This document shows positions 4,737 through 39,771 of a stretch of 39,771 nt of DNA, one piece after another (positions within the stretch are counted from its first letter, which is position 1; each line of letters begins with the position of its first letter). A program made the translations under genes and the position numbers. A model generated the notes under the pieces. It was given only the letters and a program-made list of their open reading frames with translations, was not told the DNA's origin and ran no database searches. Source of the stretch: Candidatus Gastranaerophilales bacterium (GTDB taxonomy: Bacteria > Cyanobacteriota > Vampirovibrionia > Gastranaerophilales > Gastranaerophilaceae); assembly GCA_944322665.1 (NCBI GenBank), contig CALUPM010000010.1, forward strand, positions 1-39,771, given 5' to 3'.

Positions 4737-4781
4737 ATTTTTAAATCCGGACTTATATAGCAGATTCTGCAGATACTGTCT

Positions 4782-5025: not shown

Positions 5026-5124
5026 TCGCACCCGCACAATAAACAGGTAGAGCTTATGCCTTTCACCCTCTGCTCGTGCACCTCCGGACAACGCAATTTT
5101 GAATATTTATATCTTTCTTAAAAA

Positions 5125-5161
5125 CAAAAAGCACCTTGAAAAATTTCAAGATTGCTTTTTG
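5125..5161 (-). terminator. Rho-independent terminator after the adhesin-chaperone operon
   Basis: On the minus strand CAAAAAGC pairs with GCTTTTTG, and an inner stem CTTGAAA/TTTCAAG is separated by a small internal loop. The stem is followed by TTTTTGTTTTT. It lies 22 nt beyond the stop codon of the Skp-like gene. Confidence 0.7.
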
Positions 5162-5182
5162 TATCTAAATATTGATTTATTA

Positions 5183-5644
5183 CTACTTAACAGCCTTTGA
5201 AATTTCTGCTGTTATATCCTCCCCGCCGTATAAAACGCTTGATTTTGATAAAACAAGAGTGTAGCCTTTGGCTTTTGCCTGTGCGGCGATTGTTGATGTG
5301 ATATTTTTATCAATTTCAGACAACTTGGCGGTATAATCTTTTGCATTTGCTTCTTTCTTTTTGGCAAGTTCATCATTGTATTTTTTCAAAAGCTTCTGGC
5401 GGTTTGCGTCAGTAGATTGTTTTTTTATGTCAGCATTAACAGTTTCCAGCCATTTGTTAAGTTCCTGAGCCTTTTTATCCTGTTCGTCTTTAAGTTTTTT
5501 TACCTGTGTCGACTTTGCTATAACTGACGGAACATCAACTACCGCAACTTTTGATGTAATATCCGAAAATGCTGCCCCGCAGGAACCGATTGCAATTCCG
5601 GCTGCCAGAAATATTGCCGGTAAAACTTTTGAATTGATTTTCAT
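5183..5644 (-). CDS. Skp/OmpH-family periplasmic chaperone
   Basis: A 153-residue protein with a signal peptide (residues 1-27, MKINSKVLPAIFLAAGIAIG...AAFS). The mature protein has the Skp/OmpH layout: an N-terminal strand VAVVDVPSVIAKS, a charged helical hairpin with heptad character (about residues 47-115, rich in Lys/Glu/Asp), and a C-terminal strand region YTLVLSKSSVLYGGEDIT that matches the conserved 'lvl.k.avlyg..DIT' ending. Skp trimers hold unfolded outer-membrane or secreted proteins in the periplasm. It lies 36 nt after the giant adhesin gene on the same strand, with an AAAGGA ribosome site. It is therefore probably cotranscribed and may serve that adhesin or its transporter. Confidence 0.85.
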   Translation of the reverse strand: MKINSKVLPAIFLAAGIAIGSCGAAFSDITSKVAVVDVPSVIAKSTQVKKLKDEQDKKAQELNKWLETVNADIKKQSTDANRQKLLKKYNDELAKKKEANAKDYTAKLSEIDKNITSTIAAQAKAKGYTLVLSKSSVLYGGEDITAEISKAVK

Positions 5645-5680
5645 TTTTTGTCCTTTCTTTTTCGCTTAATACACTCTTTT

Positions 5681-8600: not shown

Positions 8601-11600
8601 GATACTATTGAAGCTATCTTCAAATCGTCCTTGTTTGTTATTGCTATATCGCCGTTTGCTCTTGCACTGAGTTTGTTGACTTCTATATTAATTTTATCGT
8701 TCTTTGAAGTATCAAGATCTATGGAACCGTTTTCTGCTCTCAATTCCAGAGAATCAGCTGTTATATTTACGGAACTGCCGCTTCCGCCGAGTTGTGAACC
8801 GGCCGTTCCCAGATAAGCATTGCCGTCGGCTTTGAGAATAATGTTGCTTATATCGGAATACGGATAATTTATATATACATTTTCGCCTGCGGCATTCAAT
8901 GTTCCGCCGTTATAAACCGCTGTCTGCATCGGCTGAAGCGAAGTTCCGATATCTCCGTTATCCGCCGACAAACCTATGTTTGTAGCTGAAATTACATTAT
9001 TTATGTTATTTGTTCCGATTGAACCGTTTGTTGAGGTTAAATTTACATCGCCGTTCAATGCGCTTATACTGCTGTTCATTACAACGGAACCGTTTGAAGT
9101 TACGTTAATCTGCGGGGTGTCAAAACCCTGGAATTGAACCTGAACAGCATTTTTTGCAACTCCGTATTCAGGATCGTGGCTTACTGTATAATATACCGTT
9201 CTATACAATTTGCCGTGCCACAATTCCGTCCACCATGAACGTTTTACGTATTCCTGATAAGATTTTTGTTCTGTATATCCGGCTTTTGTAACAACATAAG
9301 CATCGTCGCCCGGATTGTAGGTAATAGTATCAACATTTGCGCCGTCTGCACGTGTCGATGATGTTGAACTTCCCCATGAGCCGTTTCCTGATGTCTGGCC
9401 TGATGTTGTTGTAACTATTTTACCGTCTTCGCCTACCTGAGCAGTATATGTGCCGGTGTTTTGTGAAATCCAATCAGGATTTTCCAGATCAGACTGGGTT
9501 ATACTATCAAATTTTGCTCCGCCCTTATCGTCTTCAGAAAGCTTAAAGTCGTTTATGGTCAATTTTCCGTTCAGATTTGCGTCTGCATTCAGGGCACTTG
9601 TAACCAGATTGAAATCCGAATTGTTGGTGATATCTATATGACCGTATCCGTTTACAAGCACTATTTTACCGTTTTCGGAGGAGCTTACAACATTACCCGT
9701 CAGGGTTATGTTTCCGCCCTGAATTTCGGCTTTAAATAAGTGGATGTCCCCTTGAATATCGTTTAAATTAGATTCATCAGAGGGCTTAAAGTACGCTTTG
9801 ATTAATTCAAGGTCTGAATCAAGTTCGCCGTTGCCTTCAAGGTTCAGATAATAATATCCGTCAGAACCTTCCGTCATCTCGGTTTTAACACCGTTGACTA
9901 TCTGATAATAAGTCTCCCCTTCTTTTACAACCGTAAATTCAGGAATTGTAACTGACTTGATTTCCGAACCGCTCTGGAGAAGTCCGTTAATATCAATAAT
10001 TTTTGAAGCTATATCAATATCGCCGGAGGCTATTATCGCACCTTTTCCGTCTGTGCCGCCCACTTCAACAGTAGTAGTCTGATAGGCTTGTGTATATCCG
10101 CCGTTCGGAACTGATATATGCAAATCTTTTGCCGTTATTGAACCTTCAGAAAGAACGTTTCCTGTATTATTTACAAAACTTACAAGTCCGTTTACGTTCT
10201 CTATGTCACCCTGGAATACCATATCGCCGTATCCGCCCGAGCCGATATCTATTGTCGGATCATTTGCGTCCACGGTATTTGTAATTGAAATAGAGTATTC
10301 AGGAGTTGAATTCAATATGGTTGTCTTTATTCCGTTGTTGCTGCCGGAAATGTTTATGTTGCCTTTTACGTTTCTGTCAATAACTATATCGTTATAAACG
10401 ATATCGTTTATACTGTCGTTTACAATATTTACGGTAAACTTGTTGCCGGGTGCCGTAATTGAACCTGTTCCTGATATATTGCCGCTAATATTGGTTTCGC
10501 CCGATCTGACGTATATGTCATCTACAATTACTGAATATACAGGTATCGGTTCCTGTTCTGCCTGTGCTTTCTGAGCGTTCAATTCATCCAGTTGAATCTT
10601 AAAGGCGTCTTCTACGTCTTGTATTTGACCTTCAGCTTTTGCAATTTCAGCGTTTGCAGCCTCTATGTTCTTCTGGGCTGTTTCCATTGTCTGTTTATAT
10701 ACCGTCATATCCTGTTTATTTTCGGTTATCTTACGGTTTGCAGCTGTCACAAAAGCATCAAGATGAGTATTGTTTGTATAATCAACATTTTCACCTAATT
10801 CCGAACCGGTAATCGCAGCAGCATAACTGTTTGACTGTTCTTCTATAACGGTAATCTTATCTTGAATATTATCGCTCACGGTATCAAGACCGCCGACTGC
10901 ATTGATTAGTGCTGTCAAATTTGCCGCTGTCGGACTGCTCTTGTAACTGTTCCACGCTGTTCTTACCGAACTCAGGTTGCTGTCGCCTGCATATTTTGCA
11001 AGAACAGTGCCGAAACTGCTGTCTACCTTATCTTCTATTGAGTCATAAGCATCGCCCCAGGCTTCTGCTACATCATCAATATTGCCGGCAGATATATTCA
11101 GATTTGCAATTTTGTTGTTATTTTCTTTAATCTTTCCGGCGTTAGTTATTGCTGTTGTATAATTCTGATTTTCTGTTTCTAAATCGGTTAAATTTTGCTC
11201 TGCTTCATCATAAGTTTTCTGTGCGTCCGCTCTTACCTGCTCTTCAATTTCTATATAATCATTTATTCCTGCAACCTTATTATCTTTGTTCTGTGTATAG
11301 GCATCTATATCTTCCTGAACATCGGCTGCTGTTATTTCTCCGACCTGCTCTGTTGTAATGTTTATACCGTTAGAAGTTGTATTGCCGTTCCTGTCCATCG
11401 TAAGACTCTTGTTTGCGCCTAAACCGCTTTCCAGAGTACCGTTCAATGTAATTTTTGCGGACGAATTATCCGGATCTTTATATTCGTTTCCGCTTCCGTA
11501 TATGGTAATCGGAATACCGAACAGGATATAAGTTGTACCTTTCGCTTCTCTTGAAGCTGTCAGCTTGCCTGTTGAATCCGCTGCAGTTACGTTCATTGAG

Positions 11601-26225: not shown

Positions 26226-26328
26226 CAAACAAATGTAAAGTAATATTAAATCCGGCAAAAAATTTTATCAATTTTCAATACAGAAAATACTTTATATGTA
26301 TATACAGGGGATATATTTGGAGATTATT

Positions 26329-28992
26329 ATGCTTACTATTTCGGAAGCAGCTAAATACAGGGAAATAGAACCGGCACAGACAGTAACGTCAAAAGCAGGA
26401 CAGACAAAACCTGTTCTGTTCAAACCTGTACGCAGCAATAAAGAAACTCCGTCAAAAGAAGAATTATGGAGCGAAAATACAAGGGCGATTTTATATAATA
26501 TTACACAAAATACCGGCATATCAGCTTACAAACCTTCACTTTTGAAAGACGACAACACTGCAATTCAACATGCTCAGACACATCTTATTGATTTATTAAA
26601 ATACTATGAAGGCGACCGATATCACTATTATGAAGCCATAACCATACCTTACAAAGACAGATATAACACCTGGACATGCGGATTTGGCGAACTCACTGAC
26701 AAACCGCGCACACAGGAAACAGCATACAAAAAACTCGGCGAAACAATCGAACAGTATGCAGGAGAAGTAAAACGCCTGCTTAACGCAAGACTCGGCAAAA
26801 ATACTTATGAAAAACTTCCTGATTCCATAAAAGAAGGTCTGATTGACCTCTGCTACAACAAAGGGCTTTCAAGGATTAGCAGGAACAAAACCCTTATGAA
26901 TGCTCTTAAAAATAAAGATTATTCAACGGTCATCGACAATCTCGATTATGTTTATTCCGGCAAAAAAGCAGTTAAAAAAGATGAAGATGCCGGATTATAC
27001 AGACGAAGCCTCAACAGAATGATGCTTGCTGCAAGAGATTTAGACGGCAAAGAACTAAAAGAGGCAAAACAAAATATAGAAAAATTTTACCGGAAAGCCC
27101 TCAACTGCCACAAAGAAAACCATATCTCAACAGCAGAGCTTGATAAAATATACGAAAACTTTACAACAGGCAAAATTTCAGGGACACCCGTAAGCGCAGA
27201 ATCTTCTAAAATTAAAGTAACTGACAAATATAAAGGGAAAGGGCTTTTTGCCGTTGCGCAGGATGCCTATGCAAATATTGAAAATAAAGGGGATATAACT
27301 TTTAAAGAATTTTATGAAGAATTCAAAAAGATAAACAGAAATCCGGAAAGCATTACTCTCGGAACAGAACTGAATGTTCCTTTGACAGAGAACCTTCTTC
27401 AGAAGAAAACGCAAACCGGAATTCCTGCTGCTACAGCCACAGCCGCACCGGCAGAAGTTCAAACTCTTGCTATACCTCAAGAAGAAAAACCCGCCGCTTC
27501 CGGAGAAAAAACGGCAGAAACAGAACCTGCAAAAACAGAAAAACAGGAAAAAAGTTTCTGGCAAAGATTGGGTGACGGTTTCAAATCAGTATTGAGAACA
27601 ATCGGTAAATTACTTTCGGGATTTTTAAATATATTTTCAAGCTGCAGCAGAAAAGATGAACCTGAAGCTGTATCAGAACTAAGCGACGAAGAACAAACCC
27701 GATTTCAAAAAATGCTTGACGATAAAAACGTAAAAATAACACAGGACGGAGAGTTTTACGTTGTATCAGGCGAGCACACCGTTAAAAAAGGTGAAACTAT
27801 CTGGAGAATTGCCAGACAATACGAAATTGATGAAAACATTTTATGCGCCAATAACAACATAAAAGATAAAGAAAAAATCTTTGAAGGACAGACTCTTAAT
27901 ATCCAGAAACTCGGCTACAAAGTAGAAAAAGGGGACAACCTCTTCAGAATAGCCAAAAAATTCGGTCTGACGGTTGAAATCTTGAAAGATATAAACAACA
28001 TCGTTGACGTAGATAAAATTGATGCCGGTCAGATGCTTGAAATTCCGGGATTTCTTTACACCGTAAAAAAAGGAGATACCCTTTTTGCAATTTCAAAAAG
28101 AGTCGGTGTAAAACTTGAAGATTTAATTAAAATCAACAACCTTGATAAAAACGGAATAATCTCACCGGGGCAAAAGATAAAAATAATTTACAACGACAGC
28201 GACTTTGCGATTTCGCCGGACAAAAAGAAAATCACCGTAGACAGAACCACTAACACTACAACGGAAATCGTTGATATGAGCGGGGTTGTAAAACTTGATA
28301 ACAGAACACTTTTAAAACAAAAACGCAAAATAAACGGGAAAGTTGTTGCAACCCGCGCTGTATTCAATCCTACAAAACAGGGAAGCCTGAGCGGAAAAAC
28401 AATTATTGTAAACGCAGGCCACGGCTATTCACAGAACGGTATTGACACAGGCACCCTCGGTCAAAAAGGACTTGAGGATGAATGGCTGATAAACTATGAC
28501 AATGCAATGAGATTAAAAGATAAATTATGCGCAAACGGTGCAAAAGTCATATTTTTACAGGGCAAAAAACGTTTAATTATGTCAGAAATTTCCAAACCGG
28601 AAAACAGCGCGGATATGTTCATCTCGGTTCACGTAAACTCACACGACAAACCGACACAGGACAGAACTCAAATCTACTATGCAAAACAAAACCACAGCAA
28701 AAAACTTGCACAAATTATGGAGAATCAGTTTGACGAATGGATTCCGGAAAACGAGCACATCTCAAGCAAAGACAAATTTACGTTTGAAGGCAAACAGGAC
28801 TATGCCCAGTCAAAACACGCAAACTATGATGTTCTGACAACAATGGAACACGAACAAAATAAACCCGGAGTTCTGTGGGAAGTAGCGTTTATGGTATCTC
28901 CCAAAGGCAGAGAAAGAATGAGAAACTCCGAATTGATGGAAGATTACGCTCAATGTATGACCGAATCGGTTATTGAATACTTTGACTCTTAA
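26329..28992 (+). CDS. Bifunctional peptidoglycan hydrolase: GH24 lysozyme, LysM x3, amidase_3
   Basis: An 887-residue protein starting at the ATG at 26329, which has GGAG 6 nt upstream; the earlier in-frame ATG at 26296 has none. Residues of about 78-240 form a T4/phage-type GH24 lysozyme with catalytic Glu94 (YYEGDRY) and the Asp110/Thr116 pair (YKDRYNTWTCGFG), plus the helical core LPDSIKEGLIDLCYNKG. A degenerate LysM-like segment (about 295-350) and a Pro/Glu/Ala-rich linker follow. Three LysM domains start at about 482, 530 and 577 (HTVKKGETIW, YKVEKGDNLF, YTVKKGDTLF). The end is a zinc amidase_3 domain with His698 (NAGHG), Glu716/718, His768 (SVHVNS) and catalytic Glu851 (LWEVAF). The enzyme would cut both glycan and stem-peptide bonds. 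No signal peptide is visible. Confidence 0.88.
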   Translation: MLTISEAAKYREIEPAQTVTSKAGQTKPVLFKPVRSNKETPSKEELWSENTRAILYNITQNTGISAYKPSLLKDDNTAIQHAQTHLIDLLKYYEGDRYHYYEAITIPYKDRYNTWTCGFGELTDKPRTQETAYKKLGETIEQYAGEVKRLLNARLGKNTYEKLPDSIKEGLIDLCYNKGLSRISRNKTLMNALKNKDYSTVIDNLDYVYSGKKAVKKDEDAGLYRRSLNRMMLAARDLDGKELKEAKQNIEKFYRKALNCHKENHISTAELDKIYENFTTGKISGTPVSAESSKIKVTDKYKGKGLFAVAQDAYANIENKGDITFKEFYEEFKKINRNPESITLGTELNVPLTENLLQKKTQTGIPAATATAAPAEVQTLAIPQEEKPAASGEKTAETEPAKTEKQEKSFWQRLGDGFKSVLRTIGKLLSGFLNIFSSCSRKDEPEAVSELSDEEQTRFQKMLDDKNVKITQDGEFYVVSGEHTVKKGETIWRIARQYEIDENILCANNNIKDKEKIFEGQTLNIQKLGYKVEKGDNLFRIAKKFGLTVEILKDINNIVDVDKIDAGQMLEIPGFLYTVKKGDTLFAISKRVGVKLEDLIKINNLDKNGIISPGQKIKIIYNDSDFAISPDKKKITVDRTTNTTTEIVDMSGVVKLDNRTLLKQKRKINGKVVATRAVFNPTKQGSLSGKTIIVNAGHGYSQNGIDTGTLGQKGLEDEWLINYDNAMRLKDKLCANGAKVIFLQGKKRLIMSEISKPENSADMFISVHVNSHDKPTQDRTQIYYAKQNHSKKLAQIMENQFDEWIPENEHISSKDKFTFEGKQDYAQSKHANYDVLTTMEHEQNKPGVLWEVAFMVSPKGRERMRNSELMEDYAQCMTESVIEYFDS

Positions 28993-29013: not shown

Positions 29014-30609
29014 TCAATATTTCACGGTTTCATCATGCCTGTGTTCGGTAAACTTTTCAACAACGCAATGTTTTTTAGTTTGATTACCCGTCCTGAAAAG
29101 AAAAGCCAGCGGGATTAAACAGAAGGCAATCAGCGCAAAAAGTTCAAACACATCCACATAAGCCATCAAACGCGACTGTGTGAGAAGCGACCTGTAAAGA
29201 TAAGAATTAGCCTTGACTGCTGCATAAGAGCTTGAAGCATTTGACATAAATGTGCTTATCAAAGCCGACATTTTCTGCTGGAACACAAGGTTAAAGTTTG
29301 AAAGGTTTTCAACAAGATAAACCTGATGAATCTGCGCGTGCCGTGCAACAAGAGTAGACGCAACAGATGCGACAATTGCCGTCATTGTACTTTTGCAAAG
29401 GTTGTGAAGGCTTGCCCCGTTTGTCAAATCAGCTTTCGGCAGAGTTCCGAGCACAAGCGCCGACACAGGGATAAACGTCATAATAACCCCGACTCCCATC
29501 AGAACCTGCGGGATTGCAATGTATATAAAAGATACGCTTAAGTTTAAATTTGCAAAAAACAATATCGAAACCCCGAGAAAAAAGAACCCGATTGCTATCA
29601 AAATTCTGTTATCAAAAATTTTCATCAGCGGGTTAATCACAATCATCATCAACACGCACGATATAATTCGCGGAGCCAGCGCATAGCCGCTTAAGATTGC
29701 CGTATATCCCATCATATTCTGCAAAAACTGCGGGATTAAAACAATACTTGAAAACACAAGCATATTAATCGACGGACTTAAAATAGTTCCGATTAAAAAG
29801 TTTCTGTCCTTAAAGAGTCTTAAATTAATCAGCGGTGAATGGCTTTCAAGCTCTCTGATTACGAAAAACACAAAAGCGCAGACCGAAAATCCCGCAAGCC
29901 AGCTTATCCACGCACAGTCAAACCAGTTGTACTGCTGGCCTTTGTCTAAAACAACCTGCATTGACAAAAGCCACAGAACAAGCGAAATCATGCCCCAGTA
30001 ATCGGTTTTTCCTGCTTTGCGTTTAGTATCAGGATCCTCAATATTTGCATGCACCATTGCAACTGAAAGGATTCCGACAGGAACATTGACAAGATAAATC
30101 CACTGCCAGTCAGCATTGTCAACAATAAATCCGCCGAACGTCGGCCCCAGAATTGCAAACACCATAACGGCAATCCCGTACAAACTCATCGCAATCCCTT
30201 TTTTGTCAGGAGGAAATGCCGCAAGCAAAATTGCCTGCGAAACAGGTGTCATAGGCCCGCCGCCTATTCCCTGAATAAGACGCCCCAGAACCATTAAATT
30301 AAGATTAGGAGCCATCGCGCAAATCAAAGATCCAACGGTGAAAATCCCGATAAAAATCTTTAAAAAACGTTTCCGTCCGAGCAGATTTTCCAGCCATCCG
30401 GACATCAAAATCAAGCAGGAATTCGCAATCATATATGAAGTTATAATCCAGTTCGCCTCGTCAATCGTAGAACCGAAATATCCCGAAATATGCGGAATGG
30501 CAACGTTTGTGGCGGAAGTCGCAAGACACGCAAATGATGTCGGCAAAAGTATTGACAGTGCAACAAGCCACAGAGGCGCCGGATGATGTTTATATATGAC
30601 CTTTTCCAT
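29014..30609 (-). CDS. emrB: EmrB/QacA-type MFS drug efflux permease (DHA2, 14 TM)
   Basis: A 531-residue inner-membrane proton antiporter with 14 predicted transmembrane helices. TM1 carries NVAIPHISGYFG (the family's 'NVALP.I' motif D1), followed by WIITSYMIANSCLILMSGWL, GRKRFLKIFIG (motif A) and GRLIQGIGGGPMTPVSQAIL (motif C-like/antiporter region), all typical of EmrB. It exports hydrophobic drugs or uncouplers together with the membrane-fusion protein EmrA and an outer-membrane channel. Its ATG overlaps the emrA stop by one base (TAATG), which is translational coupling. It is the last gene of a marR-emrA-emrB operon and converges on the peptidoglycan hydrolase gene 21 nt away. Confidence 0.92.
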   Translation of the reverse strand: MEKVIYKHHPAPLWLVALSILLPTSFACLATSATNVAIPHISGYFGSTIDEANWIITSYMIANSCLILMSGWLENLLGRKRFLKIFIGIFTVGSLICAMAPNLNLMVLGRLIQGIGGGPMTPVSQAILLAAFPPDKKGIAMSLYGIAVMVFAILGPTFGGFIVDNADWQWIYLVNVPVGILSVAMVHANIEDPDTKRKAGKTDYWGMISLVLWLLSMQVVLDKGQQYNWFDCAWISWLAGFSVCAFVFFVIRELESHSPLINLRLFKDRNFLIGTILSPSINMLVFSSIVLIPQFLQNMMGYTAILSGYALAPRIISCVLMMIVINPLMKIFDNRILIAIGFFFLGVSILFFANLNLSVSFIYIAIPQVLMGVGVIMTFIPVSALVLGTLPKADLTNGASLHNLCKSTMTAIVASVASTLVARHAQIHQVYLVENLSNFNLVFQQKMSALISTFMSNASSSYAAVKANSYLYRSLLTQSRLMAYVDVFELFALIAFCLIPLAFLFRTGNQTKKHCVVEKFTEHRHDETVKY

Positions 30610-31589
30610 TACTTAACCTTAACCTCCGGAACAACAGACATTCCAGGGACTATATTGTATTTTGAAATATCTTCCGTAAATACGATTTTGACAGGAACCC
30701 TCTGGACGATTTTTACGTAGCTTCCGACAGCGTTTTCAGGCGGAAAAAGGCTTGCCTTGGCGCCGGTTGAACGCTGTATGCTGTCAACTTTTCCGAGGAA
30801 TTTTCGACCGCCGTAAGTGTCGATTTTTATTTTAACCGGCTGTCCCGGTTTCATATTTGCAATCTGGGTTTCTTTGAAGTTTGCCACAATCCACATTTTC
30901 TCCGGAACAATCGCAAACATCGGCTGGGCAGTCTGGACGTAATTCCCCTGTTCAACCGAACGGTTTGTAATCTTGCCGTCCGAGGAAGCGTAAACTTTTG
31001 TGTATGAAAGGTTTAATTCGTCCTGCTCTACTTCCGCCTCAAGTCTTTTTATTGAAGCTTCAATTTCGTTGTATCCGGCTTTTGCGGAATTGCTGTTTGA
31101 TTGTGCAGCCGTCAGTTTGTTCAGGCTTGATTCGTAATCCTGTTTTGAAGAAATCCCTTTCTCGCGCATTTTGGAATATCTTTCATATTCGTTCTTTGCA
31201 AAATCTAAATCCGACAGAGTTTTTGCAACCTGATTGTCAGCACTCACAAGCGCTGCCTTTGCCTCTTCAAGCTTTGCCCTTGTTTGTTTAAGCTTTGCCT
31301 GATAATCGTTAGGGTCAATTTCAAGAAGAAGATCGCCTTTTTTAACCTCCTGATTATCTTCAATATTCAACTTCAAAACAGGTCCCGAAACCCTCGGTGC
31401 AACCGTGATTATGTGCCCTTCTACAAACGCGTCGTCCGTGGATTTATAGTAAACTGTATGTACTCCGTAAAATATCCCGCAGATTAAAAATACTATTGCA
31501 GTAATTGCCGGAACCAATACTCTTTTTTTCATGTATTCGGGGCGTGTATCTTCTATTTCAATTGTGTTTTCGGCTTTTTTATCTTCCAC
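30609..31589 (-). CDS. emrA: EmrA/HlyD-type membrane fusion protein
   Basis: A 326-residue periplasmic adaptor. A short cytoplasmic N-terminus is followed by one membrane anchor (about residues 22-43, VLVPAITAIVFLICGIFYGV). A lipoyl/barrel-sandwich half (ITVAPRVSGPVLKLNIEDNQEVKKGDLLLEIDPNDY) leads into a long alpha-hairpin (about 100-190) and the return half VYASSDGKITNRSVEQGNYVQ (YASSDGKITNRSVEQGN region). A beta-barrel ends the protein. The domain order matches EmrA, which links EmrB to the outer-membrane channel. It lies 20 nt after the marR gene with a GGAG ribosome site and is coupled to emrB. Confidence 0.92.
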   Translation of the reverse strand: MEDKKAENTIEIEDTRPEYMKKRVLVPAITAIVFLICGIFYGVHTVYYKSTDDAFVEGHIITVAPRVSGPVLKLNIEDNQEVKKGDLLLEIDPNDYQAKLKQTRAKLEEAKAALVSADNQVAKTLSDLDFAKNEYERYSKMREKGISSKQDYESSLNKLTAAQSNSNSAKAGYNEIEASIKRLEAEVEQDELNLSYTKVYASSDGKITNRSVEQGNYVQTAQPMFAIVPEKMWIVANFKETQIANMKPGQPVKIKIDTYGGRKFLGKVDSIQRSTGAKASLFPPENAVGSYVKIVQRVPVKIVFTEDISKYNIVPGMSVVPEVKVK

Positions 31590-31609
31590 GTTTGTTTCTC
31601 CTTTATTTT

Positions 31610-32068
31610 TTAAATTTGTAATTTTACTTTATCTCTGAGATTCATATTCATTTTTTCAAGGGTATTGAAAGTAACGGCCAAATCTTTCGCTGAAATTCCA
31701 TTTGTTATTTCACCGCGCAAATAAATGTCCGTCTGAAAAACTTTTTCTTTTAACTCTTTGCCTTTTTCGGTCACAACAAGTTTATAAATTTTTCTTCCGT
31801 TTGAGTCCGGAATCTTTTCGACAAGTCCGTTTTTGTGCATAATATCAATAATTCTTGAAATATTTGCCCTGTCCTTGAACATAATCTCCGCAAGCTGCCT
31901 CTGGCATACGATTTCGTCGTTTTCAAGAAGCAGATACAAAATTACATACTGATCCGGCGTAAGCCCGAAATTCTTCTCCGCAAACGTCTGCGTAGAAAAA
32001 CCTCTTATCAGGGTGCCTGTAATATAAATCAATGAACCTATTCTTTTTTTCAAATATTCTCTATACAT
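31610..32068 (-). CDS. MarR-family regulator of the efflux locus
   Basis: A 152-residue winged-helix dimeric regulator. The HTH is VCQRQLAEIMFKDRANISRI, followed by a recognition helix IIDIMHKNGLVEKIPD and wing DSNGRKIYKLVVTEKG, which is the MarR consensus. N- and C-terminal helices form the dimer interface. As the first gene of the marR-emrA-emrB operon, and divergent from the tolC-like gene, it most likely represses both transcripts and is released by a phenolic or drug ligand. The dyad at 32158-32185 is the probable operator. Its leader is about 95 nt long. Confidence 0.9.
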   Translation of the reverse strand: MYREYLKKRIGSLIYITGTLIRGFSTQTFAEKNFGLTPDQYVILYLLLENDEIVCQRQLAEIMFKDRANISRIIDIMHKNGLVEKIPDSNGRKIYKLVVTEKGKELKEKVFQTDIYLRGEITNGISAKDLAVTFNTLEKMNMNLRDKVKLQI

Positions 32069-32143
32069 ATCTGTCCTTCAAGCCGCCGGCAAAATGGTTT
32101 GAGAAACGGGGCTGCCGGTGTTTTAATATTTATTTTGAGCTTA

Positions 32144-32172
32144 TTTACATTTAAATGTTCTTGTGATGTAAT
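32144..32172 (+). promoter_or_regulatory. Promoter of the TolC-like gene
   Basis: TTTACA (32144-32149), a 17-nt spacer and TGTAAT (32167-32172) make a good plus-strand promoter. The predicted start of transcription near 32179 falls inside the putative MarR operator. Confidence 0.65.
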
Positions 32173-32185
32173 TATAGCACAAGAA
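32158..32185. promoter_or_regulatory. Putative MarR operator overlapping divergent promoters
   Basis: TTCTTGTG (32158-32165) and CACAAGAA (32178-32185) form a perfect 8-bp-arm inverted repeat with a 12-nt centre. The centre and left arm overlap the plus-strand -10 region, and the minus-strand extended -10 TGCTATAAT (plus-strand 32171-32179) also lies within it. A dimeric repressor bound here would block both marR-emrAB and the tolC-like gene. Confidence 0.6.
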
Positions 32186-32205
32186 AATTTTTGAGGACAC
32201 AATCT

Positions 32206-33582
32206 ATGAAAAAAATTTTTATAATTACCCTGCTTACAATAATTACCCTGCAAATTCCGGCTTTTGCAAAACAGACCGCCCCGCAGAAAGCAAATCATAT
32301 TGAATACATGAACATGTCATGGTGGGAAAAATATAACGACAAAAATTTGACAAACAACCTCTTAAAACTTTACGAAAACAATTATGACCTTAAAAATGCG
32401 GCTTTAAAAGTTAAAGAAAACGAACAGGCTGTAAAGATGCAGTTTGCAAACCAGCTTCCGGCACTCGGACTTTCCGGACAATTATACAGAGATATGCGTT
32501 CTTCAATGAAGCAATACGGAAGCATGCAAATCCCGAGTTACGCGCAGTACAATTATTACCTGCCAATTACCCTCAACTACGAAGTCGATATCTGGGGCAC
32601 AAACAGACTTAAAACCAGAAGCGTAAAGCAGCGTCTGGAAATTATAAAACAAGCTGAGCGCGCAACTTATATTTCGCTGACGTCTGATTTTGCGGCGGAT
32701 TATTTTAACCTCGTAAGAGCCGACGAATTTTTGAAAATTCAGGAAGAACTCATTAAAACTCAGGAAAAAATCGTTGAAAAAGTAAAAGACAAATACGATA
32801 TCGGACTTTGCACGATTAACGAGCTTCTCTCGGAGCAAAGACTTCTTACAATAATGAATGAAGAACACAACCGCCACCTCAAAACCCGCGACACGCTTGT
32901 TGATACAATGAAAGTTTACCTCTCCTCTTCTTCAGGCGATATAACAAGAAGCCCTTATGATACCCTGACGGTTATGGAAGGAATTCCGGTTGAATACAGC
33001 ACTGCTATCGTTGAAAACCGCCCCGACTACCTTCAGGAAGAAGCCAACATAAAACGCATCGGCTTTGACGTGAGCGCAGCAAAACGGGAATTTTTGCCAA
33101 AATTTATAATATTCGGACAAATCGGTTTAAACGCATATCATCTTGACACTTTATTTAATTCGGTTTCTCAAATGTTCAGTGCCGGAATTTTGCCATCTAT
33201 TGATTTATTCGCAGGCGGAAGAAAAATTGCTATGTTAAAATTGAAAAAATTCCAGTATGAAGAAGCCCTGAATAATTATCAAAAGGCAATTTTGACAGGC
33301 ATAAAAGAAATGAATACAGGGCTTGCTGAATACAAAGAGGCCTGCGAAAACTACAAAGAAAGCCTCAACCGCCTGAACCTCCAGAATCAAACGTATTCTC
33401 TTGCAAAAGACAAACAGGATATAGGTTCAGCAAGCGACCTTGATGTTTTATACGCGAAAGAAGCCTATTTAATGGTTAAAAAAGACGAGGTTTCAAATAA
33501 AATCAATTCTCTAATCTCGACAATCGGACTCTACAAAGCCGCAGGCGGCGTTGACCTTTACAAAATTAACGAAAATCTCTAA
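32206..33582 (+). CDS. TolC/OEP-family outer-membrane efflux channel
   Basis: A 458-residue protein starting at the ATG at 32206 with GAGGAC upstream; a TTG 15 nt earlier would destroy this ribosome spacing. A signal peptide ends PAFA (residues 1-20). The mature protein has the duplicated OEP layout: long amphipathic helices (YDLKNAALKVKENEQAVKMQ, ...RADEFLKIQEELIKTQEKIVEK, and the second-half NYQKAILTGIKEMNTGLAEYK) and the repeat hallmark NRPDYLQEEANIKRIGFDVSAAKREFLPKF. There is no lipobox Cys, so it is TolC-like rather than an acylated OprM-type. It completes a tripartite pump with the divergently encoded EmrA and EmrB. Confidence 0.9.
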   Translation: MKKIFIITLLTIITLQIPAFAKQTAPQKANHIEYMNMSWWEKYNDKNLTNNLLKLYENNYDLKNAALKVKENEQAVKMQFANQLPALGLSGQLYRDMRSSMKQYGSMQIPSYAQYNYYLPITLNYEVDIWGTNRLKTRSVKQRLEIIKQAERATYISLTSDFAADYFNLVRADEFLKIQEELIKTQEKIVEKVKDKYDIGLCTINELLSEQRLLTIMNEEHNRHLKTRDTLVDTMKVYLSSSSGDITRSPYDTLTVMEGIPVEYSTAIVENRPDYLQEEANIKRIGFDVSAAKREFLPKFIIFGQIGLNAYHLDTLFNSVSQMFSAGILPSIDLFAGGRKIAMLKLKKFQYEEALNNYQKAILTGIKEMNTGLAEYKEACENYKESLNRLNLQNQTYSLAKDKQDIGSASDLDVLYAKEAYLMVKKDEVSNKINSLISTIGLYKAAGGVDLYKINENL

Positions 33583-34063
33583 ACCCTGCCTGATTTTCCG
33601 GCTGGCTTTAACCGGCTTATGCAATCAGAATTGTCTTATTCAGCCATACAAACAAATGAAATTTACGAACATGTATTTTTGTAAATTACCTGGTGAATAA
33701 TAAATGATTTTTATAATGATTTTTTTTATTTTATGTCCTGATAAATTACGATTCCGACCGGTTTGATTTTGTATAATCAAGCAACTTCCAACCTCTACAA
33801 ATTGGCTCAAGTAGCATTTTTTTAAAATCCTGAAACAAGTTCAGAGCCTGCCCTGAATTTATTTCAGGGATGACATTTTAAGATTTGACATCTATTCAAA
33901 CCGGAAATTAAAATACATCTAATCAATACCCGAATGTAAAAGAACACATGCTTTGATTATTTCGGGCAACTTTACCTTAAAAATTTATAAAAATGAGTTG
34001 ATTTTTCTCAAAATACCTTGATTTGTATCAATTTATACTTATTCTATCATTTTTGTGAAACTT
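33583..34063. other. Intergenic region, no gene seen
   Basis: This 481-bp AT-rich spacer separates the efflux locus from the accessory island. A weak hairpin GCTGG/CCGGC occurs at about 33600-33616 after the TolC-like stop. A palindrome CCCTGAA-TTTAT-TTCAGGG sits at 33851-33869 followed by GATGAC, which recalls the tail of the intergenic repeats near 100 and 4800. I see no start/ribosome pair that supports a coding region. Confidence 0.6.
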
Positions 34064-34909
34064 TTATTGAATCTGCGCCCAAATATCAGATTTAAATTTT
34101 AAAAAAGGTTCATCCTCCGAAAATAAATCCTGCTTAATTAAACTCGCCTCAATAAAATCAGGGCTTAGATTACATTCTTCCGCAATTTTTTTAATGTATT
34201 CAGGGCTATATCTAATTCTTTTTTTGATTGTAGATTTTATTATCCCTTGATAATATTCGTATCTTTCTTTAAGTTTTAACGTACTAACATGATTTTGAGT
34301 CAATTCGTTGTTGCAAGCAATGTCAACAAAAATTTTTTTATTATTCATATAATTAGGAATATCCGAATTTTTAAGCGAAAATTTTATAGATTCACCCAAT
34401 TCACCAATATAAGGATTAATTATAATATCATTATTATCTAGTTTATAAGTGCTATTGCAACTTCTGCAAACAGGAATAAGGTTATATAAATTTAGAGCTA
34501 GAAAAGGATATGTTGATTTATTATAATAATGATCAAAAGTTGCCTCTGCAATAATATTTCCATTTTTATCCTGAATTGTTGAAAAATAATGTTGACCGCA
34601 ATAAGGACACACCTCTATTTTTAAAATTTTTATTAATTTTGCACCATACCAAGATGGAAGTTTTTTGTTATTAGGCGTTCTAAAATTTTTATATTGAGAT
34701 ATTAAATTTATCTTGGTATTGCCTTTTTTATATTTACCGTATCCTCTTTTTAATTTCATATTTTCATCAAAAGGATTCTCTATAAAAACTTTTTTCATAT
34801 CATCTTCAGATAAATTCTTTTTATTCTTAAATCTAAGTTTTTTACAGTATGCTAAATGTTTATGTTTTATATTTTCAAATTCTATATTAGTTAGATTTAT
34901 TTTTTTCAT
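34064..34909 (-). CDS. HNH endonuclease, PtuB-like partner of the ATPase
   Basis: A 281-residue nuclease. Zinc-knuckle cysteines Cys101/Cys104 (CPYCGQ) and Cys148/Cys151 (CRSCNS) bracket the HNH core FDHYYNKSTYPFLALNLYNL (Asp126-His127, Asn152), which has the order C..C-DH-YP-NL-C..CN of HNH proteins paired with ATPases in Septu-type defence. The basic N-terminal 90 residues and helical C-terminus are unassigned. The ATG lies inside the end of the ATPase gene (23-nt overlap), so the two are translationally coupled. The region is much more AT-rich than the genes to its left, consistent with horizontal transfer. The expected role is cleavage of DNA or RNA once the ATPase senses phage. This is inference from family and pairing. 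Confidence 0.82.
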   Translation of the reverse strand: MKKINLTNIEFENIKHKHLAYCKKLRFKNKKNLSEDDMKKVFIENPFDENMKLKRGYGKYKKGNTKINLISQYKNFRTPNNKKLPSWYGAKLIKILKIEVCPYCGQHYFSTIQDKNGNIIAEATFDHYYNKSTYPFLALNLYNLIPVCRSCNSTYKLDNNDIIINPYIGELGESIKFSLKNSDIPNYMNNKKIFVDIACNNELTQNHVSTLKLKERYEYYQGIIKSTIKKRIRYSPEYIKKIAEECNLSPDFIEASLIKQDLFSEDEPFLKFKSDIWAQIQ

Positions 34910-36929
34910 CTACCTGCCTTTGTAATTTTTCAAACTTATCTTTCAAGTTAATATATTGAATTAATAATTTATTCGGTTCAAACAAATACCAACTATATGG
35001 CGAAGAGTATAGTTCTTTTAATAATGCATTTTTAATTACCGGTTCACCAATAATCTCAATTTTTTTATGAATATCCTCGATGTTTCCCTTTAAATTTAAT
35101 TTATTATCATTTATCAATGCTGGATGCATAAAAATAGTATCACAAATAAAAGGTTCATAAATATTCAATCTTTTTTGGATTTCTTCTATATATTCTTTTG
35201 CAAATTCGCCAATTGTACAAATACCATCACAATCACCTAAAAAAAAGTTATTATTAAATAAATCATAAATATTTGCACAAAACGTATTTTCAATATTGGG
35301 GACAATTTTAGCATTCCCGTTTTCCCCTCTTTGAAGCATAATAACATTCTCTTTTGGCATATCAGAAAGAATAAAAGGGGAATGTGTTGTAAATATTATA
35401 TTGTTTATACCATTGAGGTTTATTTTCTTAAAGAAATCAATAATATAATATACCATTTTTCGTTGCCATTCAGGATGCCAGCTTAAATCCATTTCATCAA
35501 ACACAAAAATAGCAGTCTCTTTTGTTTTCTCATTATTTTTCACTGATAAAATGTCTGCAAAGAAACGCAAAATTCTTTGCTCTCCTGTGCTCAAATCATA
35601 AAAGGAGTATAGCTTATCGTTTCTAATATTATAGAAATTTTGTTTAAAAATTCCTAAATTATTTAATGTTTTCATTTCTTTTGTTAATTTATTTATATTA
35701 ACATCTATCATGTGTTCTAGTTTAGGTCTATAAACATTACCATCATCTGTTGTTAATATATTTTTCAAAAATTTATTATTATCTATAAGTTTAGATTCAA
35801 ATAAAATGCAAGTTTGTATTAAATTGATAAAATCATCTATTAGATTAGACCTTTCTAATTGTGATTTAATTTGTTCATCTTTAAGTTCTTGATTGAATTT
35901 TGATAAAATTTCTTCATAAAAACCTTTTAATTCAATGTGTTTCTTTTTGTAATCAATCTCATTAAGATTAATAAGAATTTTATCTAAATTCTTTAAATTG
36001 ATTATATTTTCCTGTCCTTCTAAAAAATAAAATATTTCTGCTATTTTAATGAGTACGAATTCAAAACATCCATTAGATATGACAACATGAGCAACTTCAT
36101 CTATATTTTTATATTCAAATCGTTTTGCTTTATCAATTATTAAATTATTTGAGTCTCTTAGCATATCTACAAGATTCCAAATACTTGAAAAGGCTGTATT
36201 TCCTTTTTTTATACCCAAACACAGTTTATTATTAATTTGATGGGTCAACCACTCGAATTCTTGTAAAATATTAATTTCATATCCATACTTGTCAAAAGTA
36301 AGATATTGATTTTTATCACTTAGTATTTTAAATTTTTTTTCTTTATTTTCATTGAATAATTCTCTTAAAGCATGACTTGTAACATACAATCGAAAACGAT
36401 CATAATAAAAATAATTTTCCATTTTCTTTTTTATAATATCTTGCATGTGTACTTCTTTAGGAAAAATTAAAAGATTGTCCTCTTCTATATTCAAAAATGG
36501 CTTAAATAAAGCACACCATTCATTGGCTTTTTTAGTTTCTGCTTGTATCAAGTCATTATTTATCCGCACTTCTGTTTTATTACAGTTTGTAAAACACTCA
36601 TACTTTTCATTATTTTTATATAATAAAAAGTATTTTTCAGGACAAATCGTATCAAAATAATCATCAACATCTCTAGTATAACAGCCCCTTAAAATAGAGA
36701 TTAGTGCACTACACAAATTACTCTTACCGGAGCCATTTGCTCCAATAATTGTTTTTATATTCAAATTGTTATCAAAAACATTTACATAATCCTGCTTAAC
36801 TAAAGTTATTAAAAGAAAATTTTTATCAACATTGTATTCGGTCTCCATTTCACTATAATTTGCATTTAATGAACAACCTATCTGTTCAATATTTTTATAA
36901 TCTTTTAGCCATAAATACACTAATTCCAT
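34887..36929 (-). CDS. AAA/ABC-type ATPase, PtuA-like defence sensor
   Basis: A 680-residue SMC/RecF-like ATPase. Walker A is GANGSGKS (63-70), the ABC signature is LSTGEQ (446-451), Walker B is AIFVFDEMD (473-481), and the H-loop is TTHSPF (about 514-519). Between the halves (about 150-430) is a long helical insertion. A C-terminal region (about 545-680) follows that I cannot assign. It carries no TOPRIM signature, so it is not an OLD nuclease. The pairing with an overlapping HNH gene matches Septu (PtuA-PtuB)-like anti-phage modules; no reverse transcriptase or retron RNA is nearby. Its ATG comes 1 nt after the stop codon of a broken ABC exporter gene, and no promoter of its own is obvious. 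The AGGAAG upstream lies about 13 nt away. Confidence 0.85.
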   Translation of the reverse strand: MELVYLWLKDYKNIEQIGCSLNANYSEMETEYNVDKNFLLITLVKQDYVNVFDNNLNIKTIIGANGSGKSNLCSALISILRGCYTRDVDDYFDTICPEKYFLLYKNNEKYECFTNCNKTEVRINNDLIQAETKKANEWCALFKPFLNIEEDNLLIFPKEVHMQDIIKKKMENYFYYDRFRLYVTSHALRELFNENKEKKFKILSDKNQYLTFDKYGYEINILQEFEWLTHQINNKLCLGIKKGNTAFSSIWNLVDMLRDSNNLIIDKAKRFEYKNIDEVAHVVISNGCFEFVLIKIAEIFYFLEGQENIINLKNLDKILINLNEIDYKKKHIELKGFYEEILSKFNQELKDEQIKSQLERSNLIDDFINLIQTCILFESKLIDNNKFLKNILTTDDGNVYRPKLEHMIDVNINKLTKEMKTLNNLGIFKQNFYNIRNDKLYSFYDLSTGEQRILRFFADILSVKNNEKTKETAIFVFDEMDLSWHPEWQRKMVYYIIDFFKKINLNGINNIIFTTHSPFILSDMPKENVIMLQRGENGNAKIVPNIENTFCANIYDLFNNNFFLGDCDGICTIGEFAKEYIEEIQKRLNIYEPFICDTIFMHPALINDNKLNLKGNIEDIHKKIEIIGEPVIKNALLKELYSSPYSWYLFEPNKLLIQYINLKDKFEKLQRQVDEKNKSN

Positions 36930-36930
36930 T

Positions 36931-37718
36931 TTAAATATTCACTTCCTGTTTTTTGAATTGCATTTCATAAAGAGCCTTGTATTGTCCGTTTTCTATGGAC
37001 ATAAGTTCGTCATGATTTCCGAGTTCTACCAATTCACCTTCATTTATAACTGCAATTTTGTCGGCATTTCTTATTGTTGAAAGTCTGTGTGCAATGATAA
37101 ATACTGTTTTATCTTTCATTAAATTATCAATAGCCTGTTGGACAATAGCTTCTGACTTATTATCTAATGCTGATGTCGCCTCGTCAAGTATTACTACAGG
37201 TGCGTTTTTGATAAGATAAATGCTCTTGCTATAGCAATTCTTTGTTTTTGACCATCTGAAAGCATCACTCCTCTTTCTCCGATATAGGTTTTAATACCAT
37301 CATCAAGAGTTGAGATAAATTCTTCTAAGCAGACAATTTGAATAGCAATATTTAATTATTCCTCTGTTGCGTTTGGTTTACCAATTAAAATATTTTCTTT
37401 GATACTACCTGCAAATAAAAAATCATCCTGAAAAACAATAGAAATATTATTTCTAAGCGATTCTATTTTATAATCGGCAATATCAATGCCGTCCATCTTT
37501 ATTTTCCCGTGCTTTATCTTATAAAAGCAAGGAATAAGATTTACTATTGTAGACTTTCCACCGCCGGAATTTCCGGCAAGCGCCATTGTTTCACCCTTAT
37601 TTACAACAAAACTGATATTTTTTAAAACAGGTACTCCTTTTTTGTATTCTTTTGATGTGAGATATTTAGGCAGTTTAAATGATACTCTTCTAACATATTT
37701 GAGGGGACATTTTTGCAA
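36931..37718 (-). pseudogene. Broken ABC exporter ATPase domain (MsbA-like)
   Basis: Only the nucleotide-binding domain of an MsbA/LmrA-type exporter remains; the membrane domain is gone. Recognisable are Walker A GNSGGGKST, the Q-loop [29 protein letters not shown] (signature LSDGQ), Walker [13 protein letters not shown], and the H-loop IIAHRLSTI. The frame is interrupted by a TAA at 37356-37358 (after NATEE) and by a one-base deletion at about 37215-37222, after which the original frame resumes at IKNAPVVIL. The N-terminal end before 37690 is foreign sequence. The reading order is intact enough to show recent decay. Confidence 0.85.
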
Positions 37719-37719
37719 T

Positions 37720-37903
37720 GCCGGGACATTACCATAATTTGATAATCCTTAAATCCATTTTTTAATTCTTCATAAGAATTATTTCTAATGAGATACACAA
37801 ATTACTTCAAATTCTGTTAAAGTTTGATTTGAATGCTATCTAAACTTTTTTTCAAATATTTTTCTGCATTATAAATAGGTATTATTATACTAATTTTAGG
37901 CAT
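37720..37903 (-). pseudogene. Glycosyltransferase family 2 N-terminal fragment
   Basis: From an ATG at 37903 the minus strand reads MPKISIIIPIYNAEKYLKKS, the classic start of a GT-A family 2 glycosyltransferase. Then LDSIQ is followed by a frameshift (one A missing), after which the next frame gives QTLTEFEVICV, the expected continuation. The DDGS/DxD region is missing, and the remainder to 37720 (frame containing SYEELKNGFKDYQIMVMS) is not recognised. Its start codon comes 2 nt after the stop of the 206-residue gene. It is a deletion remnant abutting the ABC exporter fragment. Confidence 0.7.
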
Positions 37904-37905
37904 TT

Positions 37906-38526
37906 TTATTTCTTTTTCTCCCCGCCATACATCCACATAAAGTGATCCAAATCCCTTATTGAATAATCTTTTTCACTTAAGTCGTAATAATCTCTAAACT
38001 TATTAATAATTTTTTTAAATGTTGTATAATTTCTTAAATCGGCAGCTGTATATTTTGGGGACAAAGACTGTTCTTTTATAAAAAGTTTAAGAACATATTC
38101 TACATTTGAATCAAAAATAGGAAAAGCCGATTTATTGTATCTAAAACAGTATTTTGTTGCAAATGAGTAAAACACCCTATTTTTAATTTCAGGTACCATG
38201 GCTATTTCAGATACTAAATTTTCTTCTCCATCTTTTAGTCTTTTGTCTATATTCTTTATTGAAACAATATGATTCGCCATTTTACTTAATGCTAATACAT
38301 TTGTACTGTAATATGCATTTAAACAGGCAACTTTTGCTAAAACCTCTGTCTCATCAGTATTACAAGGATAAATTTCTTCGAAAAGTTTATTTAAACATTC
38401 TTCTTGTTTTATGTAATGTTTATAATACGTGTCATTATTATATTTATTCAAATACTCATTTATAACTCTTTTAAACACTCCCTTATTTGGCAATATTTTA
38501 TTTACTGGTTTAAAAAAATTAGTCAT
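37906..38526 (-). CDS. Uncharacterised conserved 206-residue protein
   Basis: A mostly helical protein with two segments I recognise as conserved in a widespread uncharacterised family: FYSFATKYC (119-127) and PIFDSNVEYVL (136-146), followed by YTTFKKIINKFRDYYDLSE and a terminal DLDHFMWMYG. I recall relatives scattered in mobile or defence contexts and some database resemblance to helix-hairpin-helix/OGG-like glycosylase folds, but no catalytic Lys/Asp motif can be confirmed here. It could bind DNA; this is only a guess. It is intact, unlike most neighbours. Its ATG overlaps the stop of the recombinase-like gene by one base (TAATG), so the two are expressed together. Confidence 0.65.
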   Translation of the reverse strand: MTNFFKPVNKILPNKGVFKRVINEYLNKYNNDTYYKHYIKQEECLNKLFEEIYPCNTDETEVLAKVACLNAYYSTNVLALSKMANHIVSIKNIDKRLKDGEENLVSEIAMVPEIKNRVFYSFATKYCFRYNKSAFPIFDSNVEYVLKLFIKEQSLSPKYTAADLRNYTTFKKIINKFRDYYDLSEKDYSIRDLDHFMWMYGGEKKK

Positions 38527-38897
38527 TACAAAACAACTCCTTCTATGTATCTAAGATTCATATTTTCCTGTAAATCAATAAATTTTAAGGTCAGGGCAAC
38601 CGTTGTTTGGTGGAACAACCATTGAAGATATGACAAATCTTTATATTTCAGGTAATGATCATAATCAAATATTTTTCGCCATGAGGCAACGGATTTTAAC
38701 TGAAAAGTCTTCGTTTCGTCTGTTAGATAATATTTATCTTTTACATCTTTTACATGAAGTTTTAGCAATGTTTTTAAGTTCATGCCGGTATTTATCTTGA
38801 ATTCAAACAACAGCAGGTCTCTTACCATACCCTTCTTCCTGTACAATTCTTTTATCATTTCTATTGTGGATATATCTTTTATTGGAGAAGTTATCAT
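38526..38897 (-). CDS. Catalytically dead mini tyrosine recombinase (or integrase remnant)
   Basis: This 123-residue protein aligns by eye with small phage-integrase-like proteins of about 180 residues. The N-terminal half ITSPIKDISTIEMIKELY...RDLLLFEFKINTGMNLKTLLKL matches the box I region, where catalytic Arg of 'TGLR' is Asn (TGMN). About 70 residues in the middle are missing in frame. SVASWRKIFDYDHYL corresponds to 'HxLRKTFGYHHYL', keeping one Arg but losing His. VALTLKFIDLQ stands where 'ITLRYIGI' carries the nucleophile, so Tyr is Phe. It therefore cannot recombine DNA. It is an open frame with a coupled downstream gene, so it may still be a DNA-binding protein. No strong ribosome site is visible. 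Confidence 0.6.
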   Translation of the reverse strand: MITSPIKDISTIEMIKELYRKKGMVRDLLLFEFKINTGMNLKTLLKLHVKDVKDKYYLTDETKTFQLKSVASWRKIFDYDHYLKYKDLSYLQWLFHQTTVALTLKFIDLQENMNLRYIEGVVL

Positions 38898-39149
38898 AAT
38901 TGCTTATATTTCATTCTTTCCGAAAAATTTTCTCTTTAACATCACTTCTGCAAATATTCTCTTAACTTTTTTTAGCCATTATGTAAATCCTGTATTTTCA
39001 AACTTACGGGAACCTATATTATCACAAACCAAAATGGAATTTTATATTTATTAAAAAATGTTATGAATTCCCATTTTTTAAAACAATTTCCATACAAAAC
39101 CCTTTTAAATCAGGTTACTTGCCAATCTTAACTTTTTGGATGAAATACT
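38898..39149. other. Intergenic region upstream of the recombinase-like gene
   Basis: This is AT-rich sequence without an intact gene. On the minus strand an ATG at 38979 with AGGA upstream opens a frame reading MAKKS, stop, then ENICRSDVKEKIFSERMKYK, up to the start of the recombinase-like gene. It may be a decayed N-terminal extension or leader peptide gene. GATAATAT upstream of it (near 39020) could be a -10 element. Confidence 0.4.
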
Positions 39150-39412
39150 GTTAAGAAGATAAGCCTTTCATATCAGGAAATGAATTTTGTGCAAATCTTT
39201 TGACAGATTTTCAATAACCTTTGAGCCCCACCCTGCCTGTTCTTGCTGGTTTAAAATGTTTTACCTATATTCCAATACAAAATTATAAACTCTGAATTAA
39301 CGGACAAAGCCGCTTTTACCTGAGCACTTCTGATTTCATTTTTCAGATTTTCCAGAACTTGAATATATGATTTATCTATGTTGTCCAAAATTCTCTGCAA
39401 ATCTTCTGAATG
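39150..39412 (-). pseudogene. DUF1016/YhcG-like PDDEXK nuclease, N-terminal fragment
   Basis: The minus strand reads SEDLQRILDNIDKSYIQVLE, then NLKNEIRSAQVKAALSVNSE and FIILYWNIGK, the typical DUF1016 N-terminal domain. A frameshift follows. The next frame continues ILNQQEQAGWGSKVIENLSK with DLHKI, and a third frame reads SFPDMKGLSS, as expected for 'KDL...FPDMKGLS'. The PDDEXK nuclease half is absent. Intact relatives (YhcG) are nucleases linked to restriction-modification and defence islands, so this piece is a relic of such cargo. Confidence 0.75.
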
Positions 39413-39684
39413 TTAGATTACAAGGAATATTTTCATATCCTCATTTTTCAAGGTTTCATTTGCTCATTTAAAATCGTATTATATTCACCCTGTTGATTAG
39501 TTCTGCGTTTTTGTAAAAGTCCCTCTGTTCCGTAATCTTCAAACATTTTAACCCAACGATGAAGTGTTCCTATCGAAATTGAATCAACAAACTTATATAT
39601 TTGTTACAAATACATTCCGCTGTTATATAAATCTAAAAATACTGAATGTGTTCCTGTTTTTCTGCTTTTGTAACAGAATGACAT
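39413..39684 (-). pseudogene. Helix-turn-helix (IS3-type orfA-like) transposase remnant
   Basis: From an ATG at 39684 the minus strand encodes MSFCYKSRKTGTHSVFLDLY, then NSGMYL, a TAA stop, QIYKFVDSISIGTLHRWVKM and FEDYGTEGLLQKRR. This is the HTH pattern of transposase OrfA-like proteins ('ialYl.G.s...I......is.sTlyrWvk.f...G..gLl.k'). A later frameshift near KP/TLKNEDMKIF leads into a stop right before the DUF1016 fragment. Terminal inverted repeats were not found. A non-transposase HTH regulator is possible. Confidence 0.6.
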
Positions 39685-39697
39685 AATCCAGATTATG
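39682..39697. promoter_or_regulatory. Palindrome CATAATC-CA-GATTATG
   Basis: Perfect 7-bp arms with a 2-nt centre overlap the start codon of the broken HTH gene and lie just left of the tandem TGAC dyads. It may be a binding site for the protein once encoded next to it. Confidence 0.4.
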
Positions 39698-39722
39698 ACT
39701 ATAGGTCATTGACTTTTAGTCA
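39695..39722. promoter_or_regulatory. Tandem TGAC-GTCA dyads (putative operator)
   Basis: Two dyads lie 14 bp apart: ATGAC-TATAG-GTCAT (39695-39709, perfect 5-bp arms) and TGACT-TTT-AGTCA (39710-39722, perfect 5-bp arms). The second covers the -35 box of the following promoter. The arrangement fits cooperative repressor binding; I do not recognise the regulator family. Confidence 0.5.
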
Positions 39723-39737
39723 TTTATTTGTTATAAT
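39709..39737 (+). promoter_or_regulatory. Near-consensus promoter of the last gene
   Basis: TTGACT (39709-39714), a 17-nt spacer and a perfect TATAAT (39732-39737) form the best promoter in the window. It overlaps the TGAC dyads and is followed by AGGAG (39749-39753), 6 nt before the ATG at 39760. Confidence 0.8.
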
Positions 39738-39759
39738 ATTTTATAATCAGGAGTATTTT

Positions 39760-39771
39760 ATGAATAAAAGA
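39760..39771 (+). CDS. Start of a gene cut by the window end
   Basis: Only four codons (MNKR) are present. The strong promoter and the AGGAG ribosome site at ideal spacing make this a real start. Nothing can be said of the product. Confidence 0.6.

Follow-up and report, generated by a model that had tools for sequence, protein, structure and literature searches.

Septu systems, in which an ATPase (PtuA) is paired with an HNH nuclease (PtuB), assemble as a 6:2 oligomer and restrict phage. Reported targets of PtuAB cleavage differ between systems and comprise phage DNA, single-stranded DNA and host tRNA-Tyr (PMC11555353, PMC13096335, PMC12948488), and in the E. coli Septu system B88 both the Walker mutants and the H75/N91 mutants are without defence (PMC13096335). 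PDC-M62, a catalogued candidate defence type, is named in the searchable literature only in a genome survey; there, within the Bacillus cereus group, Septu calls coincide with 203 calls of PDC-M62 (PMC11811056).

The pair of genes considered here lies in a window of 39,771 nucleotides, an entire contig of the 1.9-Mb assembly of a Candidatus Gastranaerophilales bacterium (102 contigs, 96.6% complete). It is probably a PDC-M62-type defence module, Septu-like and operating without a reverse transcriptase (RT), in which the C-terminal tail of the ATPase and the HNH nuclease would together form an exchangeable cassette on a common sensing body. The features of the locus are collected in Table 1.

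Table 1. Features of the ATPase/HNH module and its surroundings (window coordinates)
Feature	Coordinates	Strand	Evidence
Whole insertion, 6.1 kb, between TolC-like and TetR genes	33577..39705	.	Empty site, about 42 bp, in G143 (L086) and G374 (L088)
PtuB-like / PDC-M62B HNH nuclease, 281 aa, class A	34064..34909	-	Profiles, motifs, fold match
PtuA-like / PDC-M62A ATPase, 680 aa, SMC/ABC-type	34887..36929	-	ORF, profiles, motifs, PDB matches
ATPase C-terminal tail, residues 526-680, predicted HNH-docking segment	34887..35354	-	Swaps with HNH gene; dS 1.4
ATPase residues 1-525, head domain and long helical insert, shared platform	35355..36929	-	92% aa identity to G170 relative
Pseudogene, 3' end of MsbA-type ABC exporter	36934..37649	-	Residues 359-595 of G170 homologue; frameshift and stop
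N-terminal fragment, family 2 glycosyltransferase	37817..37903	-	PF00535 3.9e-4, below curated cut-off
206-aa protein, intact ORF, rare in family	37906..38526	-	ORF
Integrase fragment	38526..38897	-	phrog_216 E 1.4e-8, profile positions 51-109 of 301
DUF1016 (YhcG-type nuclease) fragment	39258..39412	-	PF17761 E 1.1e-5, below curated cut-off
Helix-turn-helix (transposase-like) fragment	39500..39601	-	PF13518 E 0.0026, weak

The ATPase and HNH proteins

An initial annotation had described a 680-residue ATPase with intact motifs overlapping an HNH gene by 23 nt, and both the reading frames and the motifs are found where it had placed them. The overlap (34887-34909) is real because the HNH start is conserved, reading MKKIN, MKKID or MKKLD in three loci, and its length differs among relatives from 0 to about 20 nt. 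The AT-richness noted earlier is also borne out, GC content falling to 24-26% at 34-37 kb versus 36-45% across most of the window. A promoter scan gave nothing above shuffles.

In the ATPase, the Walker A (GANGSGKS from residue 63, containing K69), signature (LSTGEQ, 446), Walker B (FVFDEMD, 475, containing D478) and H-loop (TTHSPF, 514) motifs are intact, with K69, D478 and H516 invariant in eight aligned sequences. The protein scores 61 bits against PF13304 (AAA_21-type, cut-off 27), its best PDB sequence match is PtuA 8ee4 (3e-8), and a profile search of the PDB ranks the PtuA of retron Ec83 first (2e-18), followed by other PtuA chains and then AriA. The structure prediction reaches only moderate confidence (pLDDT 68, with parts of the tail at 30-64), and a fold search with it places PtuA on top (Z 15.8) with Rad50/SMC heads within about 1 Z, so that the sequence profile decides the identity of the protein. 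Residues 1-525 are under purifying selection (dN/dS about 0.18), which indicates just maintenance of the ATPase body.

The HNH protein, for which intact zinc cysteines and a DH core had been claimed, indeed retains CPYC (101), FDH (125, containing D126/H127) and CRSC (148), and residues C101, C104, D126, H127, N143, C148, C151 and N152 are invariant in 11 sequences. Its match to PF01844 lies just above the cut-off (21.9 versus 21.4 bits). Over its full extent the predicted model (pLDDT 84) can be superposed on the PtuB proteins of Septu and of the retrons Ec78/Ec83, with Z 10-12 (11.4 against 8eea_G), the next fold scoring 3.4, and the H127-N143 spacing of 16 residues is the same as that of H75/N91 in PtuB of E. 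coli Septu B88 (PMC13096335).

Family assignment

When the PADLOC profiles were run, as the initial annotation had proposed, both proteins landed in the defence candidate PDC-M62 with Septu next. The best profiles for the ATPase are those of PDC-M62A (PDLC04737, 2.3e-53, residues 1-643; PDLC04734, 1.1e-47, residues 1-675), and for the HNH protein that of PDC-M62B (PDLC04743, 3.4e-37, residues 40-265), whereas PtuA and PtuB profiles rank lower (5.6e-19 and 1.5e-6, respectively); the ATPase also matches AriA (3.5e-17) and AbiLi (2.3e-19) profiles. The near full-length matches to a two-gene candidate system, together with a pairing kept in related loci, argue that the two genes are not together by chance. 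Thus the Septu-like ATPase/HNH pairing proposed at the outset stands, its finer placement shifting to PDC-M62 on the better profile scores with PtuA/PtuB second, and the pair is, by its sequence, a new Septu-like member of this catalogued candidate type.

The long helical insert of the ATPase (about residues 150-430) had been taken as a possible mark of a distinct subtype. The models of PDC-M62A have lengths of 597-746 positions, and the alignment to one of them runs from residue 1 to 675 and spans the insert, which therefore belongs to the PDC-M62A family, is normal for it and does not set a new subtype apart. The C-terminus, put forward as a second such mark, did prove to be the informative region, although as a segment exchanged along with the HNH gene.

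Exchange of the ATPase tail with the HNH gene

A natural exchange of the tail together with the HNH gene, examined within one bacterial family, is well supported by sequence comparison among relatives. Between the window and its closest body relative, genome G170, 93 of 1575 nt differ over the ATPase body (residues 1-525; dN 0.035, dS 0.19), while dS reaches 1.4 in the tail and 1.7 in the HNH gene, a synonymous jump that relaxed protein selection alone could not produce, so that the body and the tail/HNH part have different histories. The body tree makes the window and G170 sisters (99/99), and the HNH tree pairs G170 with G139 (97/94). The pattern recurs elsewhere, as in G033 and G014, sisters by body (100/100) yet carrying different HNH classes (split 100/99), and in G435 and G438 (body support 92/98), again with different HNH classes; in all, the tree of the ATPase body requires three or more shifts of HNH class. 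The grouping of the window with G170 is rejected on tail plus HNH (p-AU 0.0013) and on HNH alone (0.00016), and the body data reject a tree in which HNH class forms a clade (p-AU 0.00026), p-values that are somewhat optimistic because the groups were named after the data had been seen.

The tail, for its part, follows the nuclease. Its tree recovers HNH class with weak support (79/90), and tail lengths by HNH class do not overlap (129-156 versus 97-123). In a partial Mantel analysis by permutation over 13 modules the correlation of tail with HNH given body was 0.39 (p 0.0004), to be read against the adjacency of the two on the DNA, by which linkage alone moves both together to some extent; that of body with HNH given tail was 0.23 (p 0.05), a weak residual over the same 13 modules. 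A duplicate module (G033 = G019) was removed before this estimate, since with it the partial r is inflated to 0.70. From this pattern we infer that tail and HNH gene may constitute an exchangeable effector cassette.

An assembly chimera was considered as the cause of the mosaic and is unlikely, given that the reading frame is kept and that the pattern recurs in diverged lineages. A search at the level of the order yielded two extra modules, of which the first is identical to a module already known and the second diverged throughout, and no new exchange event, and no description of a tail/HNH exchange was found in searchable papers. Enterobacteriaceae plasmids (L152:2921-5618 and L151, the latter with its ATPase region annotated in pieces) carry a PtuA-like ATPase that overlaps a partner without a Pfam HNH match, and a tyrosine recombinase follows; the matches listed for these plasmids are either whole or a 41-bp end.

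The mosaic also bears on whether the pair might simply be a diverged canonical Septu system, with PDC-M62 a branch of Septu and the exchange an ordinary recombination devoid of functional meaning. Such an interpretation, which we regard as unlikely, would account for the full-length match of the HNH model to PtuB, the PtuA/PtuB profile matches and the coincidence of PDC-M62 with Septu calls in the B. cereus group. Against it, the PDC-M62 profiles score far better, the pair misses the cut-offs of the NCBIfam PtuA equivalog NF041760 (Ec78 PtuA; 55.7 of 500 bits) and of TIGR02646 (12.7 of 52), and the tail tracks HNH class in both sequence and length in several lineages, part of which DNA adjacency would give.

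Insertion site and a probable exporter slot

The accessory island suggested by the initial annotation takes the form of a 6.1-kb insertion, the corresponding site being empty in two genomes of the same genus, G143 and G374, where only about 42 bp separate the TolC-like gene from a TetR gene behind it; in the window the start of the TetR gene sits at the contig end. In a further genome, G078 (L087, 5947-7924), the same chromosomal site holds a truncated TolC-like gene and then an unrelated gene, so the site is variable within the genus. Broken mobile or defence genes had been reported on one side of the module, and decayed genes do lie on its high-coordinate side; the main one is no defence gene but what is left, at the 3' end, of a conserved ABC exporter. 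On the same side, the intact 206-aa ORF overlaps the integrase fragment by one base and has only two weak relatives in 191 genomes of the family. Elsewhere in the window, an 898-aa protein (26296-28992) with phage-lysozyme, LysM and amidase_3 domains is a cell-wall hydrolase of an unusual, double kind.

The stop codon of the exporter remnant immediately precedes the ATPase start. The same junction is seen in G170 and G475, where the exporter gene is complete or nearly so, and in G033, where it is truncated, and the module lies behind this ABC exporter in three other genera; other relatives have a different gene upstream of the ATPase. Of 40 relatives, 38 have MsbA-type exporters, and further copies are present in the window genome. 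The slot behind the exporter thus seems to be one usual position of the module, which in the window genome seems to have moved elsewhere together with the exporter 3' end, and the glycosyltransferase fragment is consistent with a source in a glycan locus. In G124 the place behind an exporter gene of 95% identity is occupied by a caspase-domain gene (L132:2753-3961; PF00656, 5.5e-15), 13 bp from the exporter and itself followed by an unassigned 158-aa ORF, from which it is possible that the place is a shared slot for defence-like cassettes.

Distribution and mobility

Of the family's 383 genomes, 20 (about 5%) match the ATPase at a threshold of 1e-15, and none of the 13 other genomes of the genus does. 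The conserved co-occurrence that had been set as a check is found: in M62-like loci the HNH gene directly adjoins the ATPase gene, in the order ATPase-HNH, wherever the contig flank suffices, and PDC-M62A+B pairs are also present in other phyla, on Bacteroides, Haliscomenobacter and Paenibacillus plasmids. Modules identical over their comparable parts occur across different genera or species (G033/G019 and G438/G566). This points to recent transfer, although a mix-up between assemblies may be another source of such identity. No match was found in 50,697 phage records, and viral contigs gave remote ATPases only. Some relatives have restriction-type, PDDEXK or WYL genes near the module; in G014 (L053, around 1934-9168) the module is clustered with an RT gene, a PDDEXK_4 nuclease gene and a WYL regulator gene, likely a defence island. 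The two genes form a horizontally acquired module, very probably an anti-phage system related to Septu.

Linkage to a retron was also considered, and an RT search of 18 genomes together with the Rfam families found none. A type I-A retron lacking, or lying apart from, its RT/msDNA, which would leave the pair a stranded toxin, is very improbable even with the Ec83 retron ATPase ranked first in the PDB profile search (2e-18): the pair is not read as a retron because no reverse transcriptase (RVT_1) was found in its own 96.6% complete assembly, an RT lies within a few kb in one relative only (G014, on the opposite strand), there is no Rfam match in 30000-39771, and an unrestrained PtuAB-type toxin should not stay under purifying selection. 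Less credible still is a housekeeping, repair-type ATPase/nuclease pair devoid of a defence role, which the SMC/Rad50-like head fold would allow and against which stand the patchy occurrence, the AT-rich setting inside an insertion, the plasmid-borne pairs of other phyla and the restriction-type, PDDEXK or WYL neighbours of some relatives.

Proposed tail docking and mechanism

Read most simply, the swap reflects docking of the HNH nuclease by the tail, as we infer with indirect support from the extent of PtuA chains in the PDB, which tend to be resolved further with HNH bound. Specifically, chains C/D of 8eea are resolved for 445/456 residues versus 375/372 in A/B, 9n69_A/B for 525/512 versus 425-447 in 9n6c, and 9e90_C to residue 540 versus 457 in 9e91_A. 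For the PDC-M62-type module proposed here, an ATPase dimer or oligomer would sense infection while holding the nuclease via its C-terminal tail (residues ~526-680) and, by analogy with PtuAB, would restrain the HNH protein until infection. A change in nucleotide state or the binding of a phage product would then free or activate the nuclease, which may cut phage DNA or a host tRNA, both being targets reported from one PtuAB system or another, and so stop phage growth, with tail and HNH acting as a swappable effector cassette upon the common sensing body.

A more far-reaching proposal, made with less confidence, casts the ATPase body as a reusable sensor, re-armed with nucleases of different targets through repeated exchange of tail and HNH gene between genomes, and the exporter 3' end as a shared slot for defence cassettes; this is perhaps the case. 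For the questions of target choice and of the control of the nuclease by the ATPase in PtuAB, near-identical bodies with different tails and nucleases are natural chimeras, ready-made pairs for separating the phage-sensing part from the target-choosing part.

Comparison with known systems

The kinship with PARIS (AriA-AriB) and AbiL is confined to the profile matches of the ATPase to AriA and AbiLi, since the partner here is an HNH/PDC-M62B protein and there is no AriB (TOPRIM) or AbiLii profile among the matches listed. Type I-A retrons (Ec78/Eco7, Ec83) come closer, their PtuAB effectors being homologous and among the nearest solved structures, but no reverse transcriptase was found in the present assembly and there is no RNA family match near the pair. 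With Septu the locus shares the ATPase/HNH pair, the intact Walker motifs, a PtuB-like fold over the entire HNH protein and an H-N spacing of 16; it differs in the distance from Walker A to Walker B, which is 409 residues here versus 273 in E. coli B88 PtuA (K43/D316, PMC13096335), and in that PtuA/PtuB profiles are far weaker on this pair than those of PDC-M62. The likeness to PDC-M62 extends to both proteins, and there the ATPase gene is followed by the HNH gene, as it is here.
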